Source: Chloroflexota bacterium (GTDB lineage Bacteria; Chloroflexota; Limnocylindria; Limnocylindrales; CSP1-4). Taken from it: a DNA stretch of 64,000 nt. Positions 3,864 to 62,142 of the stretch are shown in pieces. The translations under genes and the position numbers were made by a program. How positions within the stretch are numbered: the first letter of the stretch is position 1; each line of letters opens with the position of its first letter. The stretch is taken from NCBI GenBank assembly GCA_016191425.1, contig JACPOR010000019.1, forward strand, positions 1 through 64,000, written 5' to 3'. The notes under the pieces were generated by a model that was not told the DNA's origin, did no database searches, and was given only the letters and a program-made list of their open reading frames with translations.

Positions 3864-3916
3864 GCGACATCGCCTAAGCCGGGAGCGGTCTTTCAGCCGC
3901 CCGAGTCGAGCGCCAG

Positions 3917-4080
3917 TTCCAGGAGCCCGAGCTGGGTGGTTCTTCAGGTGCCCGAGCTGGGCGGTTCCATGAGCCCGAGCTGGGCGCCGGTTCCAGGAGC
4001 CCGAGCTGGGCGGTTCTTCAGGTGCCTGCGCCAGGCGGTTCTTCAGGTGCCTGCGTCAGGCGCGGTTTCTCAGATGCCCG
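3917..4080 (+). repeat. Array of about seven short stem-loops
   Basis: Units of about 24-25 bp alternate a spacer (GGTTCTTCAGGT or GGTTCCAGGA) with a self-complementary 13-mer. Units 1-4 use GCCCGAGCTGGGC (the first ends in T). Units 5 and 6 use GCCTGCGCCAGGC and GCCTGCGTCAGGC; a seventh is degenerate. The two stem types differ by paired changes that keep base pairing. The array starts ~55 bases after the VanW stop and could work in termination, RNA stability or protein binding; function unknown. Confidence 0.75.
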
Positions 4081-4278
4081 CCCCATGCCTGGGCTGCATG
4101 CTTCGGACACGATCTGGCGATCCGGAGACCCATGATGATCCGGAGACAAAGACGACCCACTCTGTCACCGCGAGCCCACAATTCCTGCCGTCGCCGCTCC
4201 AACGCGACGGTGCGGCCTCGTGCTGAACGCGATAGGCGACCGATCAGCGCGATTTAGAAATGCATCCCACTTTGCGTG

Positions 4279-4410
4279 TGTGCCGACCCGCCGGGCACTG
4301 CCTGGCGGCCCCGACCCGTGGTCACTGCCTGGGTGCCGAGCCCCGGGCACTGCCTGCGTGCCGACCCCCGGTCACTGCCTGCGTGCCGCCCCGCCGGGCA
4401 ATCCTGGCCT
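4279..4410 (+). repeat. Tandem array, five ~25-26 bp units
   Basis: Five imperfect copies built on gtgccgacccc(c)gg(g/t)cactgcctg. The last unit reads ggcaatcctgg. The array ends 12 bases before the inverted-end element at 4423. No reading frame here looks coding. Confidence 0.75.
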
Positions 4411-4422
4411 ATGACCGCCCCC

Positions 4423-4595
4423 GGAGCACTATGCGGGTAGCCGGCCCCGAACGGCTGCTGAGCGAGCCCGAGATCAGACCGATCCGCCCTGTGTGGTCCG
4501 AACGTCGTGCGTGGCCGGGCCCGGGTCAGGCAGCCGCCGGCCTGGCAGGCTGGTTCGAGCGGGCGCGACATCCTCCGCTATCTGCATAGTGCTCC
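4423..4595 (+). repeat. Inverted-end element, copy A (173 bp)
   Basis: The left end GGAGCACTATGCGGGTAG (4423-4440) matches the reverse complement of the right end CTATCTGCATAGTGCTCC (4578-4595) at 16 of 18 positions. Inside, CCGATCCGCC starts at offset 56 and CGTCGTGCGTGG at offset 80. A second copy in reverse orientation at 16820-16982 has the same two motifs at offsets 57 and 80. The size and ends suggest a MITE-like element or a family of structured intergenic RNA/DNA sites. No target-site duplication is clear. Confidence 0.7.
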
Positions 4596-5028
4596 CCCCA
4601 CGAGCATCAGCCAGGAAAGCCGGGGCCGGGCCGGGGGTCAGGACGGGGCCGGGGGCCGGGGGCCGGGGGCCGGGCGCGGTCAGACCAGGCCGAACCGGGC
4701 GGCGTCGGCCCGAGCCGAGCCGGGCCGGGAGGGGCGGCGGGCGGAGCAGGGCCGCGGTGGCGCCGGGCGGCGGCGAGCCGAGTCGGGAGGCGCGCCGGCG
4801 GGCGGAGCAGGGCCGCGGTGGCGAGCCGAGCCGGGGTCGGGCGGCATCGCGGATGGGGCGCCAGGAGGCGCGGAGCCGGGGCGAGCCGAGCCAGAGCACG
4901 CCGGGCGGGGCCACCCACGACCCCGGCCAGCGCAGGCGCAGGATCGTTTGCGACTTCAGGGAGCCGATCGGGCGGCGAGAATCGGCGGCGAGCTGAGGCG
5001 GCCGCTCAGTCAGCGTCGCCCGGTCACG
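4596..5028. other. GC-rich intergenic stretch, no gene seen
   Basis: Extremely G-rich repeats of gagccgagccgggccggg and gcgggcggagcagggccgcggtggcg (4640-4870, the latter twice ~67 bp apart). Open frames here on both strands are low-complexity Arg/Gly/Pro products of base composition. At 5010-5043 tcagcgtcgcccggtcacg occurs twice, running into the end of the subtilisin gene. Confidence 0.6.
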
Positions 5029-9386: not shown

Positions 9387-10484
9387 CTACGTCGCCCGCA
9401 ACCCTCGCTCGAGGAAATGCACGAGCGCCAGCTCCTCGCGCCGCCCGAACCGCGGAGCCACCTGTTCGCCTGGATCCCGGCGCGGCGACCGACCACGCGG
9501 CAACGTCCCGGCCAGGTACGCCTCGACGACCAGGGGCGCGATGTAGCTCTGGCGGCTGACCGCGGGCGTGTTGCCCAGGACCTCGGCCACCGCCTCCGCG
9601 GAGCGCACGACCATCGCGCGCGGCTGCGCCGCAGCCGAGTGCGGGCTCGGTCTCGATCGGAGCGTCTGAAAGGCGATGAGCGTGCCGATCCAGGTCCGAA
9701 AGTCCTTGCCCGTGATCGGGATGCCCGCCGCGTCCTTGAGGTACGTGTTCACGTCCGCCGACTCGATCGGCCGCGGTTCGCCGTCCTCGTCGAGATACTG
9801 GAAGAGTTCCTGACCGGGGAGTTGCTCGCAGCGGGCCACAACCCGGGCGAGGCGCCGGTCGCGACCGCCGACCTCGTGGATCTTGCCGCTCTTGCCCCGG
9901 AAACTGAATCGAATCGCGTCGCCGGACACAGTGACGTGCCGGTTTCGCAGCGTGGTGAGGCCGAAGGATCCGTTGGCCCGCGCATATGCCTCGGTTCCGA
10001 TACGCATCGAGGTCGTCTCGAGGAGCCGAACCACCGTTGCCAGAACCTTCTCCTTCGAGAGGACCGTGAGGGCCAGGTCCTGCGCGACGCGCCGCCGGAG
10101 CCGAGGCAACGCGCGGCCGAACGCCGCCATCCGGCCGAACTTCGACGCGTCGCGTCGGGCGCGCCACGCCGAGTGGTAACGGGACTGCTTGCGTCCGCGG
10201 GCATCGCGGCCCGCGGCCTGCAGGTGGCCGCGGGCGTCGGGGCAGATCCACACGTCGTGCCAGGCCGGTGGGACGGCGAGTGACCGGATCCGCGCCAGCG
10301 TCGCCGCGTCGCGGATCGATGCGCCGTCCGGGCCGAGGTAGCGGAAGCCCCGTCCGGCGCGGCGCCGCGTTATGCCCGGTTCCGCGTCGGTCGAATGCCG
10401 GAGGTCGGCGGTGCGGGACCGCTCCCCGACCGTCAGGTGCAGGCCCTGACCCCGGGCGTGTCCCACGCGATGCGTGTCGGTCAT
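9387..10484 (-). CDS. DNA topoisomerase type IB (poxvirus-like)
   Basis: 365 residues from ATG 10484, preceded by gggggcgagag; an alternative ATG lies at 10526. The N-terminal part has GRGFRYLGPDGASIRD and LAVPPAWHDVWICPDARGHLQAAGRDARGRKQ-type sequence of bacterial TopIB. The catalytic domain has KEKVLATVVRLLETTSMRIG, RHVTVSGDAIRFSFRGKSGK, the catalytic Arg in KDFRTWIGT and the active-site Tyr in RQSYIAP near the C terminus. The enzyme relaxes supercoils through a 3'-phosphotyrosine intermediate without ATP. It is an accessory enzyme, scattered among soil and freshwater bacteria. Neighbours give no functional hint. Confidence 0.9.
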   Translation of the reverse strand: MTDTHRVGHARGQGLHLTVGERSRTADLRHSTDAEPGITRRRAGRGFRYLGPDGASIRDAATLARIRSLAVPPAWHDVWICPDARGHLQAAGRDARGRKQSRYHSAWRARRDASKFGRMAAFGRALPRLRRRVAQDLALTVLSKEKVLATVVRLLETTSMRIGTEAYARANGSFGLTTLRNRHVTVSGDAIRFSFRGKSGKIHEVGGRDRRLARVVARCEQLPGQELFQYLDEDGEPRPIESADVNTYLKDAAGIPITGKDFRTWIGTLIAFQTLRSRPSPHSAAAQPRAMVVRSAEAVAEVLGNTPAVSRQSYIAPLVVEAYLAGTLPRGRSPRRDPGEQVAPRFGRREELALVHFLERGLRAT

Positions 10485-10653: not shown

Positions 10654-11026
10654 TGGTGGAGATGGGGGAGAGTCGAACTCCCCGTCCAGAGCCCTTCGGC
10701 AGCAACCACTACGAGCGTGTCCGATCGTTTTCGTCAACCATCCGGGCGGGGATCGGCACTCTCCCGGTTGGTCCAGTCACGTGTCTCTAGATCGAGCTTG
10801 CTCCCGGAATACGCGACGCTCAACCGGGCTGCAGCCCCGCTTGATGACGCTTCCACGACCCGCGGGACTGAGGTCGCTTCCACGCTCACCTTACCGCCTA
10901 AGCGGCGAGGGCGAGAGTCGACTGCTTGTTGGCAGTTACTTCGTTTTGCCGCCTGTTTAACGAGGCCTGACGGCACCTCGGCTCGCGTTCACTGTCAGCT
11001 GGACCCTGTCGAAACCACGCATCCCC
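10654..11026 (-). ncRNA. ssrA: Transfer-messenger RNA (tmRNA)
   Basis: 373 nt. The 5' end GGGGATGCGTGGTTTCGACA pairs as a 7-bp acceptor stem with CATCTCC before a genome-encoded ACCA at 10654. The T arm reads GGGGAGTTCGACTCTCCCC. The tag frame gives ANKQSTLALAA followed by TAG, ending in the LAA proteolysis signal. tmRNA with SmpB rescues stalled ribosomes and tags the nascent chain for ClpXP-type proteases. smpB lies 1.2 kb upstream on the same strand. A good promoter is visible just upstream, leaving a ~26 nt leader to be removed by RNase P. Confidence 0.95.
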
Positions 11027-12257: not shown

Positions 12258-12722
12258 CTATCGGCCCCGTCGCGTCTCGGCGACGTCGCGTTCCATCTGG
12301 CGTCGGGCATCCCGTTCGGCGATGTCCCGGCGTTTGTCGTGGAGCTGCTTGCCGCGGCCGAGCCCGAGCTCGAGCTTCGCCTTGCCCCGGCCGGTGATAT
12401 AGAGGCGGAGCGGAACAAGCGTCAGGCCCTTGGCCTTGGTCTTGCCGAGCAGCTGATCGATCTGGGCTCGGTGCAGGAGCAGCTTGCGCTCGCGCTTGGC
12501 CTCGTGATTGAAGCGGCTGGCGCTCTCCCAGGGGGCGATATGGGCGCCGATCAACCAGGCCTGACCGCGGTCGATCCGGGCATACGAATCGGACAGGTTG
12601 ACCTGGCCGGCCCGAATGCTCTTGATCTCCGTTCCGACCAGCGCGATGCCGGCCTCCACGGTGTCCTCGATGGAGAACTCATGGCGAGCCCGGCGGTTCT
12701 GAGCGATCGTCTGTTCGCCCAT
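12258..12722 (-). CDS. smpB: SsrA-binding protein SmpB
   Basis: 154 residues from ATG 12722. The in-frame start at 12761 was rejected because family members begin near IAQNRRARHEF. Core motifs are IEDTVEAGIALVGTEIKSIRAG, HIAPWE and LVPLRLYITGRGKAKLELGLGRGK, with a basic C-terminal tail (KRRDIAERDARRQMERD) that enters the mRNA channel of stalled ribosomes. SmpB binds tmRNA and delivers it to the ribosomal A site. ssrA is encoded 1.2 kb downstream on the same strand. Confidence 0.96.
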   Translation of the reverse strand: MGEQTIAQNRRARHEFSIEDTVEAGIALVGTEIKSIRAGQVNLSDSYARIDRGQAWLIGAHIAPWESASRFNHEAKRERKLLLHRAQIDQLLGKTKAKGLTLVPLRLYITGRGKAKLELGLGRGKQLHDKRRDIAERDARRQMERDVAETRRGR

Positions 12723-16475: not shown

Positions 16476-16710
16476 CGAATCGGCTCCGCGTTGTGCCGCG
16501 TCGACCCCTGGGGGGATCGGCGCCAGCTCGCGAGACTCCGGGCCCGGGGCACGTCGGAGGGAGCCACGTCGGGCCAGAGGCTACCACCGCGTCGACGAAC
16601 ACGGCAATAGGATGCCGCCCGCGCGGGCGGCATCCTGGACGTTCGTCGTGTGCTCACCCTGGTCGCCCTGTGCCTGGCCCGGGTTACGCTCGGTGGCCGA
16701 GTCGGACCTT
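16476..16710. other. Intergenic stretch upstream of ftsE, no gene seen
   Basis: First part of the 707-base gap between ftsE and the GNAT gene, which also holds the separately listed repeats at 16711-17104. It contains ccgcgcgggcgg-type inversions (16618-16632) but no convincing frame or promoter. Confidence 0.4.
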
Positions 16711-16815
16711 GGCACCTCGGCCACAGGTTGGGCATGGCCACAGGTTGCGCCTGGCACCTTGGCCACAGGTTGGGCATGGCCACAGGTTGCGCCTGGCACC
16801 CTGGCCAATGCGCCT
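16711..16815 (+). repeat. 42-bp tandem repeat, about 2.5 copies
   Basis: Two almost identical units (16711-16752 and 16753-16794) contain ggccacaggttg(g/c)gc twice each; a third is truncated (ggcaccctggcc). The array ends 5 bases before the inverted-end element copy B, mirroring the array beside copy A. Confidence 0.8.
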
Positions 16816-16819
16816 CCAC

Positions 16820-16982
16820 GGAGCACTATCCGAGTAGCGGAGCGGACGAGCCCGCACTGAGCGCTCCCTGGGCCCATGGTCGGCGCGCATCCACGCACGA
16901 CGCACGCCTCGAACAGGCGGATCGGCCCCCTCGCGGCCGCGTGTGGGTCGCGCGGGCAGGCCCAATACCCGCATAGTGCTCT
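16820..16982 (-). repeat. Inverted-end element, copy B (163 bp, reversed relative to copy A)
   Basis: Left end GGAGCACTATCCGAGTAG and right end ATACCCGCATAGTGCTCT are inverted repeats at 14 of 18 positions. Read on the minus strand, it begins AGAGCACTATGCGGGTAT, has CCGATCCGCC at offset 57 and CGTCGTGCGTGG at offset 80, matching copy A (56 and 80). A further end-like sequence, CCCCGTAGTGCTC, lies 160 bases on (17130-17142). Confidence 0.7.
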
Positions 16983-17055
16983 GGTCGTGGACGGACCGTA
17001 CGGACCGGCGCGCATCGCGGACCACCTCGCGCTCAACGCGCGGACCAGCGCTCGC

Positions 17056-17104
17056 CGCACGGACAGGCGCGATTCGCACGGACAGGCGCGATCCGCACGG
17101 ACAG
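17056..17104 (+). repeat. 19-bp tandem repeat, 2.6 copies
   Basis: CGCACGGACAGGCGCGAT(T/C) is repeated at 17056-17074 and 17075-17093, with a truncated third copy to 17104. It sits between element copy B and the GNAT gene. Confidence 0.75.
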
Positions 17105-61879: not shown

Positions 61880-61933
61880 GATTCCGGCGCTCGGCGCTCG
61901 GGGTACCGCCGCGTGGTTCGGCCCTCGGGGCCC

Positions 61934-62142
61934 TGAGTGACCAGGCGGCGACTGCCGTGCCCGGCGACGTGGCGACCGCCGTGAGTGGCCAGGCGGAGAC
62001 TGCCGTGCCCGGCGACGTGGCAACCGCCGTGAGTGGCCAGGGAGCGACCGACGTGCGGGAGCTCATGCGGCGCGACCTCGACCCGCGGAAGCTCCCGCCG
62101 CGAGACCTCGACCCGCGGGAGCTTCTGCCGCGAGACATCGAC
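61934..62142 (+). repeat. Two adjacent tandem arrays (48-bp x2.4 and 30-bp x2.4)
   Basis: A 48-bp unit (61934-61981, 61982-62029, truncated third) contains GACTGCCGTGCCCGGCGACG. A 30-bp unit (62071-62100, 62101-62130, truncated third) contains GACCTCGACCCGCGG. Both periods are multiples of three and form a weak Arg/Ala-rich frame, but I do not accept it as a gene. Confidence 0.75.

Follow-up and report, generated by a model that had tools for sequence, protein, structure and literature searches.

Two copies of a repeated element, A and B, lie in the window (the whole stretch of 64,000 nucleotides that was analysed; Table 1) and probably belong to a new family of non-coding, non-autonomous mobile elements, found between genes and MITE-like in the broad sense. 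The original prediction had offered a mobile element, a protein-binding island or a structured RNA; the first fits best: recent, nearly identical copies sit at loci unrelated to one another, amplification is specific to single species, a relative has an empty site, and one gene is truncated. A limited literature search found no description of a MITE in this uncultured Chloroflexota lineage. The consensus is now searchable and defines a recently active repeat family of the lineage.

Copies A and B in the window

The ends of copy A (GGAGCACTATGCGGGTAG and, on the opposite strand, GGAGCACTATGCAGATAG) match as inverted repeats at 16 of 18 positions, the same count on rechecking as originally given. 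The window contains GAGCACTAT four times (0.07 expected), once at each end of A and of B. Leave-out models, built without A and B, recovered A at 4394-4623 (E=2e-60) and B on the minus strand (E=2e-24), in agreement with the reversed second copy predicted at 16820-16982; the reversed window, used as control, gave a best E of 3.8. Aligned directly, A and B scored 42; the best of 500 dinucleotide shuffles reached 36.

The extent first proposed (about 165-173 bp) was too narrow. Conservation extends into the outer arms (AATCCTGGC..ATGACC and GAGCATnnGCCAGGAAA): an alignment of 26 copies showed it past the first ends, on the left (AATCCTGGCtnATGACCGCCCCC) and on the right (CCCCCACGAGCATTGGCCAGGAAACC), which brings the unit to about 230 bp. 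Copy B is an old, diverged copy with an outer arm decayed on one side.

Table 1. Coordinates of copies A and B, their parts and the adjoining tandem arrays in the window
Feature	Position	Strand	Basis
Copy A, whole (~230 bp)	4394-4624	+	R1 168.9 bits, E 8.6e-50; leave-out model
Copy A, left arm	4402-4440	+	Fixed-spacing pattern match 4402-4430 (+); alignment of 119 ends
Copy A, left-arm blocks: outer TCCTGGC, inner GGAGCACT, then GCGGGTAG	Outer 4402-4408; inner 4423-4430	+	
Copy A, central conserved motif TCGTGCGTGGCCG, sets element orientation	4505-4517	+	Alignments
Copy A, inverted right arm with inner block 4588-4595 and outer block 4610-4616	4578-4616	-	Pattern match 4588-4616 (-)
25-bp tandem array adjoining and entering copy A left arm	4273-4408		Tandem Repeats Finder
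Copy B, whole, diverged	16792-16995	-	R1 95.9 bits, E 2.6e-27; leave-out model E 2e-24
Copy B, low-coordinate arm (the element's right arm): CCCTGGC 16799-16805, GGAGCACT 16820-16827	16799-16837	+	Sequence; arm table
Copy B, central motif, minus-strand sequence TCGTGCGTGG	16891-16900	-	Sequence; alignment
Copy B, other arm: inner block kept, outer TCCTGGC decayed	16975-16982	-	Sequence; alignment; arm table
42-bp tandem array adjoining copy B	16710-16807		Tandem Repeats Finder

The 25-bp unit of the array at copy A resembles the outer block of the arms. Short intergenic tandem arrays with units of 19-74 bp were found in the window at 3899-4062, 4273-4408, 16710-16807, 17055-17104 and 61930-62142, and several of them adjoin copies of the element.

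The family in its own genome

The window's own assembly (G000: 2.38 Mb, 56 contigs, 92%-complete) contained 36 occurrences of GGAGCACTAT, against 2 for the backwards control, and an inverted partner was located 140-205 bp from every occurrence examined. A sequence-only model (R1) found about 29 full copies, with fragments beside some of them. These further copies and the A-B alignment score above the shuffled range fully uphold the view that A and B are members of a family and not a chance resemblance. Copies are typically about 230 bp long (range about 200-265 bp), with a GC content of about 72%.

Eighteen pairs of copies shared at least 90% identity. Six copies at unrelated loci, with at least 85% identity, form a subfamily that includes copy A, which is 94-96% identical to the other five, flanks included; a direct search also gave 99% identity to A over 173 bp at 49056-49228 of contig C51. 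Copy B is closest to another G000 copy (L020, 78% identity). The outer boundary is blurred, with 60-110 bp of flank common to some copies. In one subfamily (L001, L002, L009, L022, L024 and L027) the central region contains ACCGACCGAGC-like tandem units whose number varies between copies.

No gene was predicted in the element, and with a home-made codon model none of the 26 examined G000 copies fell inside a predicted gene. A single apparent ORF spans a copy in a related genome (G011, L103) and is probably a false prediction. In draft genomes the family tends toward contig ends.

Distribution across genomes

R1 found the family in three of the 15 genomes of the same genus (G000, G007 and G011). 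The 12 others had no convincing match, either with R1 or with the arm pattern, and 10 other genera of the same family gave no convincing R1 score. G007 and G011 carry their own amplified variants; in G011, a separate burst produced about 25 copies, the majority of which resemble one another closely. Beyond the genus, the distribution was assessed with R1 (the 10 other genera of the family) and with an arm-pattern search. Of the 126 genomes searched in the order, 4 had the pattern at up to one mismatch, a setting that more diverged copies would escape, and the backwards control never gave more than one chance match per genome. The fourth positive genome (G033), from another genus, has a diverged element of the same plan in two places. 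These copies (L156, 143-389, and L152) have TTCCTCGCCAATG ends, a clear middle module and flanking TTGACAG motifs.

A phage or plasmid origin was considered and set aside: phage and plasmid records gave no match, and the arm pattern was absent from IMG/VR viral contigs.

Evidence for mobility

The genes on either side of copy B keep their synteny in a groundwater Chloroflexi MAG (JACQEH010000096.1; 61-89% protein identity), where the gap measures 263 bp, with no R1 match, against 708 bp here; this contrast of filled and empty site is one between species, not strains. Tandem repeats are present in the gap of that MAG without the element.

A second locus is the C51 copy, which is nearly identical to A and lies (L137, 4994-5230) between a shortened lipoprotein gene and groES. 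The lipoprotein ends in GLAGTGL*, with the stop codon inside the element's left end, while orthologues in G001, G011, G007 and G005 continue for about 14 further residues into a conserved TLTVTIGH-like tail that is missing in G000. The orthologues compared are 46-61% identical, a distance at which the exact junction is unreadable. The copy has replaced the conserved end of the gene; the missing tail, with a stop codon in the element, therefore makes it a late arrival. Since copy B is missing in a syntenic relative and the lipoprotein gene has lost its end, the family either moves or is copied.

No consistent direct repeat indicating a target-site duplication was found over 58 copies at many offsets, with fuzzy copy boundaries. 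Full-length transposons sharing the ends, as the original prediction had suggested looking for, were not found: in the 92%-complete G000 no unpaired arm surrounded a transposase, and no arm pair enclosed a longer element. Partial R1 matches in G000 all adjoin full copies, and the left-arm fragments in G011 lie at contig ends.

Three of the five MITE features tested were thus found, namely a small non-coding multi-copy unit, terminal inverted repeats and insertion polymorphism. The family is filed as 'MITE-like' because there is no demonstrated target duplication and no partner. For many bacterial MITEs no partner is known (PMC2229807), and its absence here therefore lowers the claim in part only. 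By the mechanism that we propose, a DNA recombinase or transposase would bind the paired blocks of both arms and move the element in trans; insertions would survive mainly in intergenic DNA, and arms with their neighbouring DNA may later expand as tandem repeats.

Architecture of the arms and centre

The element is bounded by imperfect terminal inverted arms of about 40 bp, whose core consensus is the same left and right in three genomes (TCCTGGC....G..C......GGAGCACT...C.GGT; 119 arms). In nearly all of the 119 arms the outer and inner blocks are separated by 14 bases, so that the block starts are 21 bp apart, corresponding to two turns of B-DNA. The arm sequence seems unlike the ends of the Tn3 family. 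A 10.5-bp periodicity of conservation was marginal (p 0.02-0.05).

Each copy is given a direction by its central motif (CGTGCGTGGCCG in G000, CGAGCGTGGCCGG in G011). In a minority of copies (L016, L021, L123, L124, L126, L131 and those of G033) this motif can be recognised as the outer block repeated a third time; in the remaining copies the third module is too degenerate.

Orientation and gene context

Over the three genomes, 27 of the 31 copies between co-directional genes are oriented with transcription (27:4, p=3e-5): 12/14 in G000, 10/10 in G011 and 5/7 in G007. Three of the four exceptions are among the copies whose orientation is least certain, namely the diverged G007 copies and L016. 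Divergent gaps hold 16 copies and convergent gaps 10; the element is therefore neither a dedicated terminator nor a leader. Simple random insertion does not predict the 27:4 ratio. Candidate causes are selection on transcripts and insertion tied to replication, and the bias is the part of the work most worth pursuing.

The bias bears on two alternatives. The element could be a directional unit of three modules (two arms and, in the middle, the outer block once more) moved by a recombinase of an undescribed type, or one inserted strand-specifically into replicating DNA, which would leave no target duplication and have its orientation fixed with transcription; we regard this as unlikely. If true, the element would not only be mobile but would also be under selection for what it does to read-through transcripts.

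Alternatively, the arms might pair in the transcript as a regulatory or processing hairpin acting on neighbouring mRNAs (Correia/NEMIS or ERIC-like at the RNA level). The 27:4 orientation agrees with such a structured RNA, as does the folding of copy A (z -2.9 on the plus strand versus z -1.6 on the minus). However, double changes were found in only 1 of 18 consensus pairs, with a covariation term of 0.18, about zero (RNAalifold), and in all three genomes the arms of an element paired no better than with shuffled partners (in G000, 27.9/43 with the own partner versus 28.4/43). G-U and A-C changes were equally frequent in G000 (3.1 versus 3.2), and divergent gaps also hold copies. Left and right arms thus do not covary, which speaks against a conserved RNA stem joining the two, and the arm-pairing test gave such a stem no support. 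Together with the constant gap inside each arm, this fits arms that work as separate sites. Recognition at the DNA level is the simpler reading; the negative tests concern the arm-to-arm stem only, and a local RNA fold might lie in another part of the element. Rfam also offered no known RNA family: the best match near the element had E 7.7, and the sole match in the window was a tmRNA elsewhere. A structured RNA is accordingly improbable.

A probable protein-binding site within a mobile element

The copies could instead be islands bound by proteins that serve the nucleoid, segregation or regulation; selection would keep them, and gene conversion, not transposition, would spread them. In three genomes each arm has two blocks conserved at a 21-bp phase, with a drifting sequence in between; this spacing would suit a protein touching one face of B-DNA, and flanking DNA beyond the element is common to some pairs. 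Against this, a patchy presence in 3/15 genus genomes and species-specific bursts are ill-suited to an essential site, and one copy damages the end of a conserved gene. The binding part of the original suggestion is likely to hold, as the site of a recombinase within a mobile element; stand-alone islands are not favoured and seem quite improbable.

Relation to known systems

A RAYT (Y1) transposase that moves REP/REPIN-like palindromes is a very unlikely explanation. The intergenic position, the paired inverted units, the tandem clusters alongside and the known GTAG-tagged REPs of the same phylum, Chloroflexi (PMC3733652), would point to it, but it is largely refuted by the absence of Y1_Tnp (PF01797) from all 15 genus genomes (control genomes were positive). 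The units, at about 230 bp, also differ from hairpins of 20-40 bp that bear a GTAG or CGTC tag at the end, and on inspection the middle of the left arm (ATGACC) was unpaired with GGAGCACT. More generally, REP/REPIN/BIME systems with RAYT (PMC3733652, PMC3116915) are alike in their inverted pairs of short modules, intergenic position and tandem expansion around copies, but this genus has no RAYT gene and the element's arms are long and two-block, not a tagged short hairpin.

The MITE-like reading has its closest parallels in the bacterial MITEs (Correia/NEMIS, ERIC, RUP; PMC2229807), which are likewise small, non-coding, multi-copy and intergenic, have inverted repeats at their termini, lack their own transposase and have spread recently within genomes. 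This likeness is by description, not by sequence: the present element is somewhat larger (about 230 bp), GC-rich (about 72%) rather than A+T-rich, and without 5'-TA-3' termini or a detectable target-site duplication. The Tn3-derived TIMEs (PMC4133298) are also short non-coding units bounded by inverted repeats and moved in trans, whereas no duplication was found for the element. A MITE of Porphyromonas gingivalis with an internal minisatellite (PMC4596501) recalls the ACCGACCGAGC-like internal units of one subfamily and the flanking tandem arrays; the host phylum differs and this likeness, too, is by description only.

Two other features were noted in the window. The tmRNA gene (Rfam RF00023) lies near smpB (10654-11026 and 12258-12722, both minus strand) and is ordinary, and a bacterial topoisomerase IB (PF01028, PF21338) is encoded at 9387-10484 on the minus strand.
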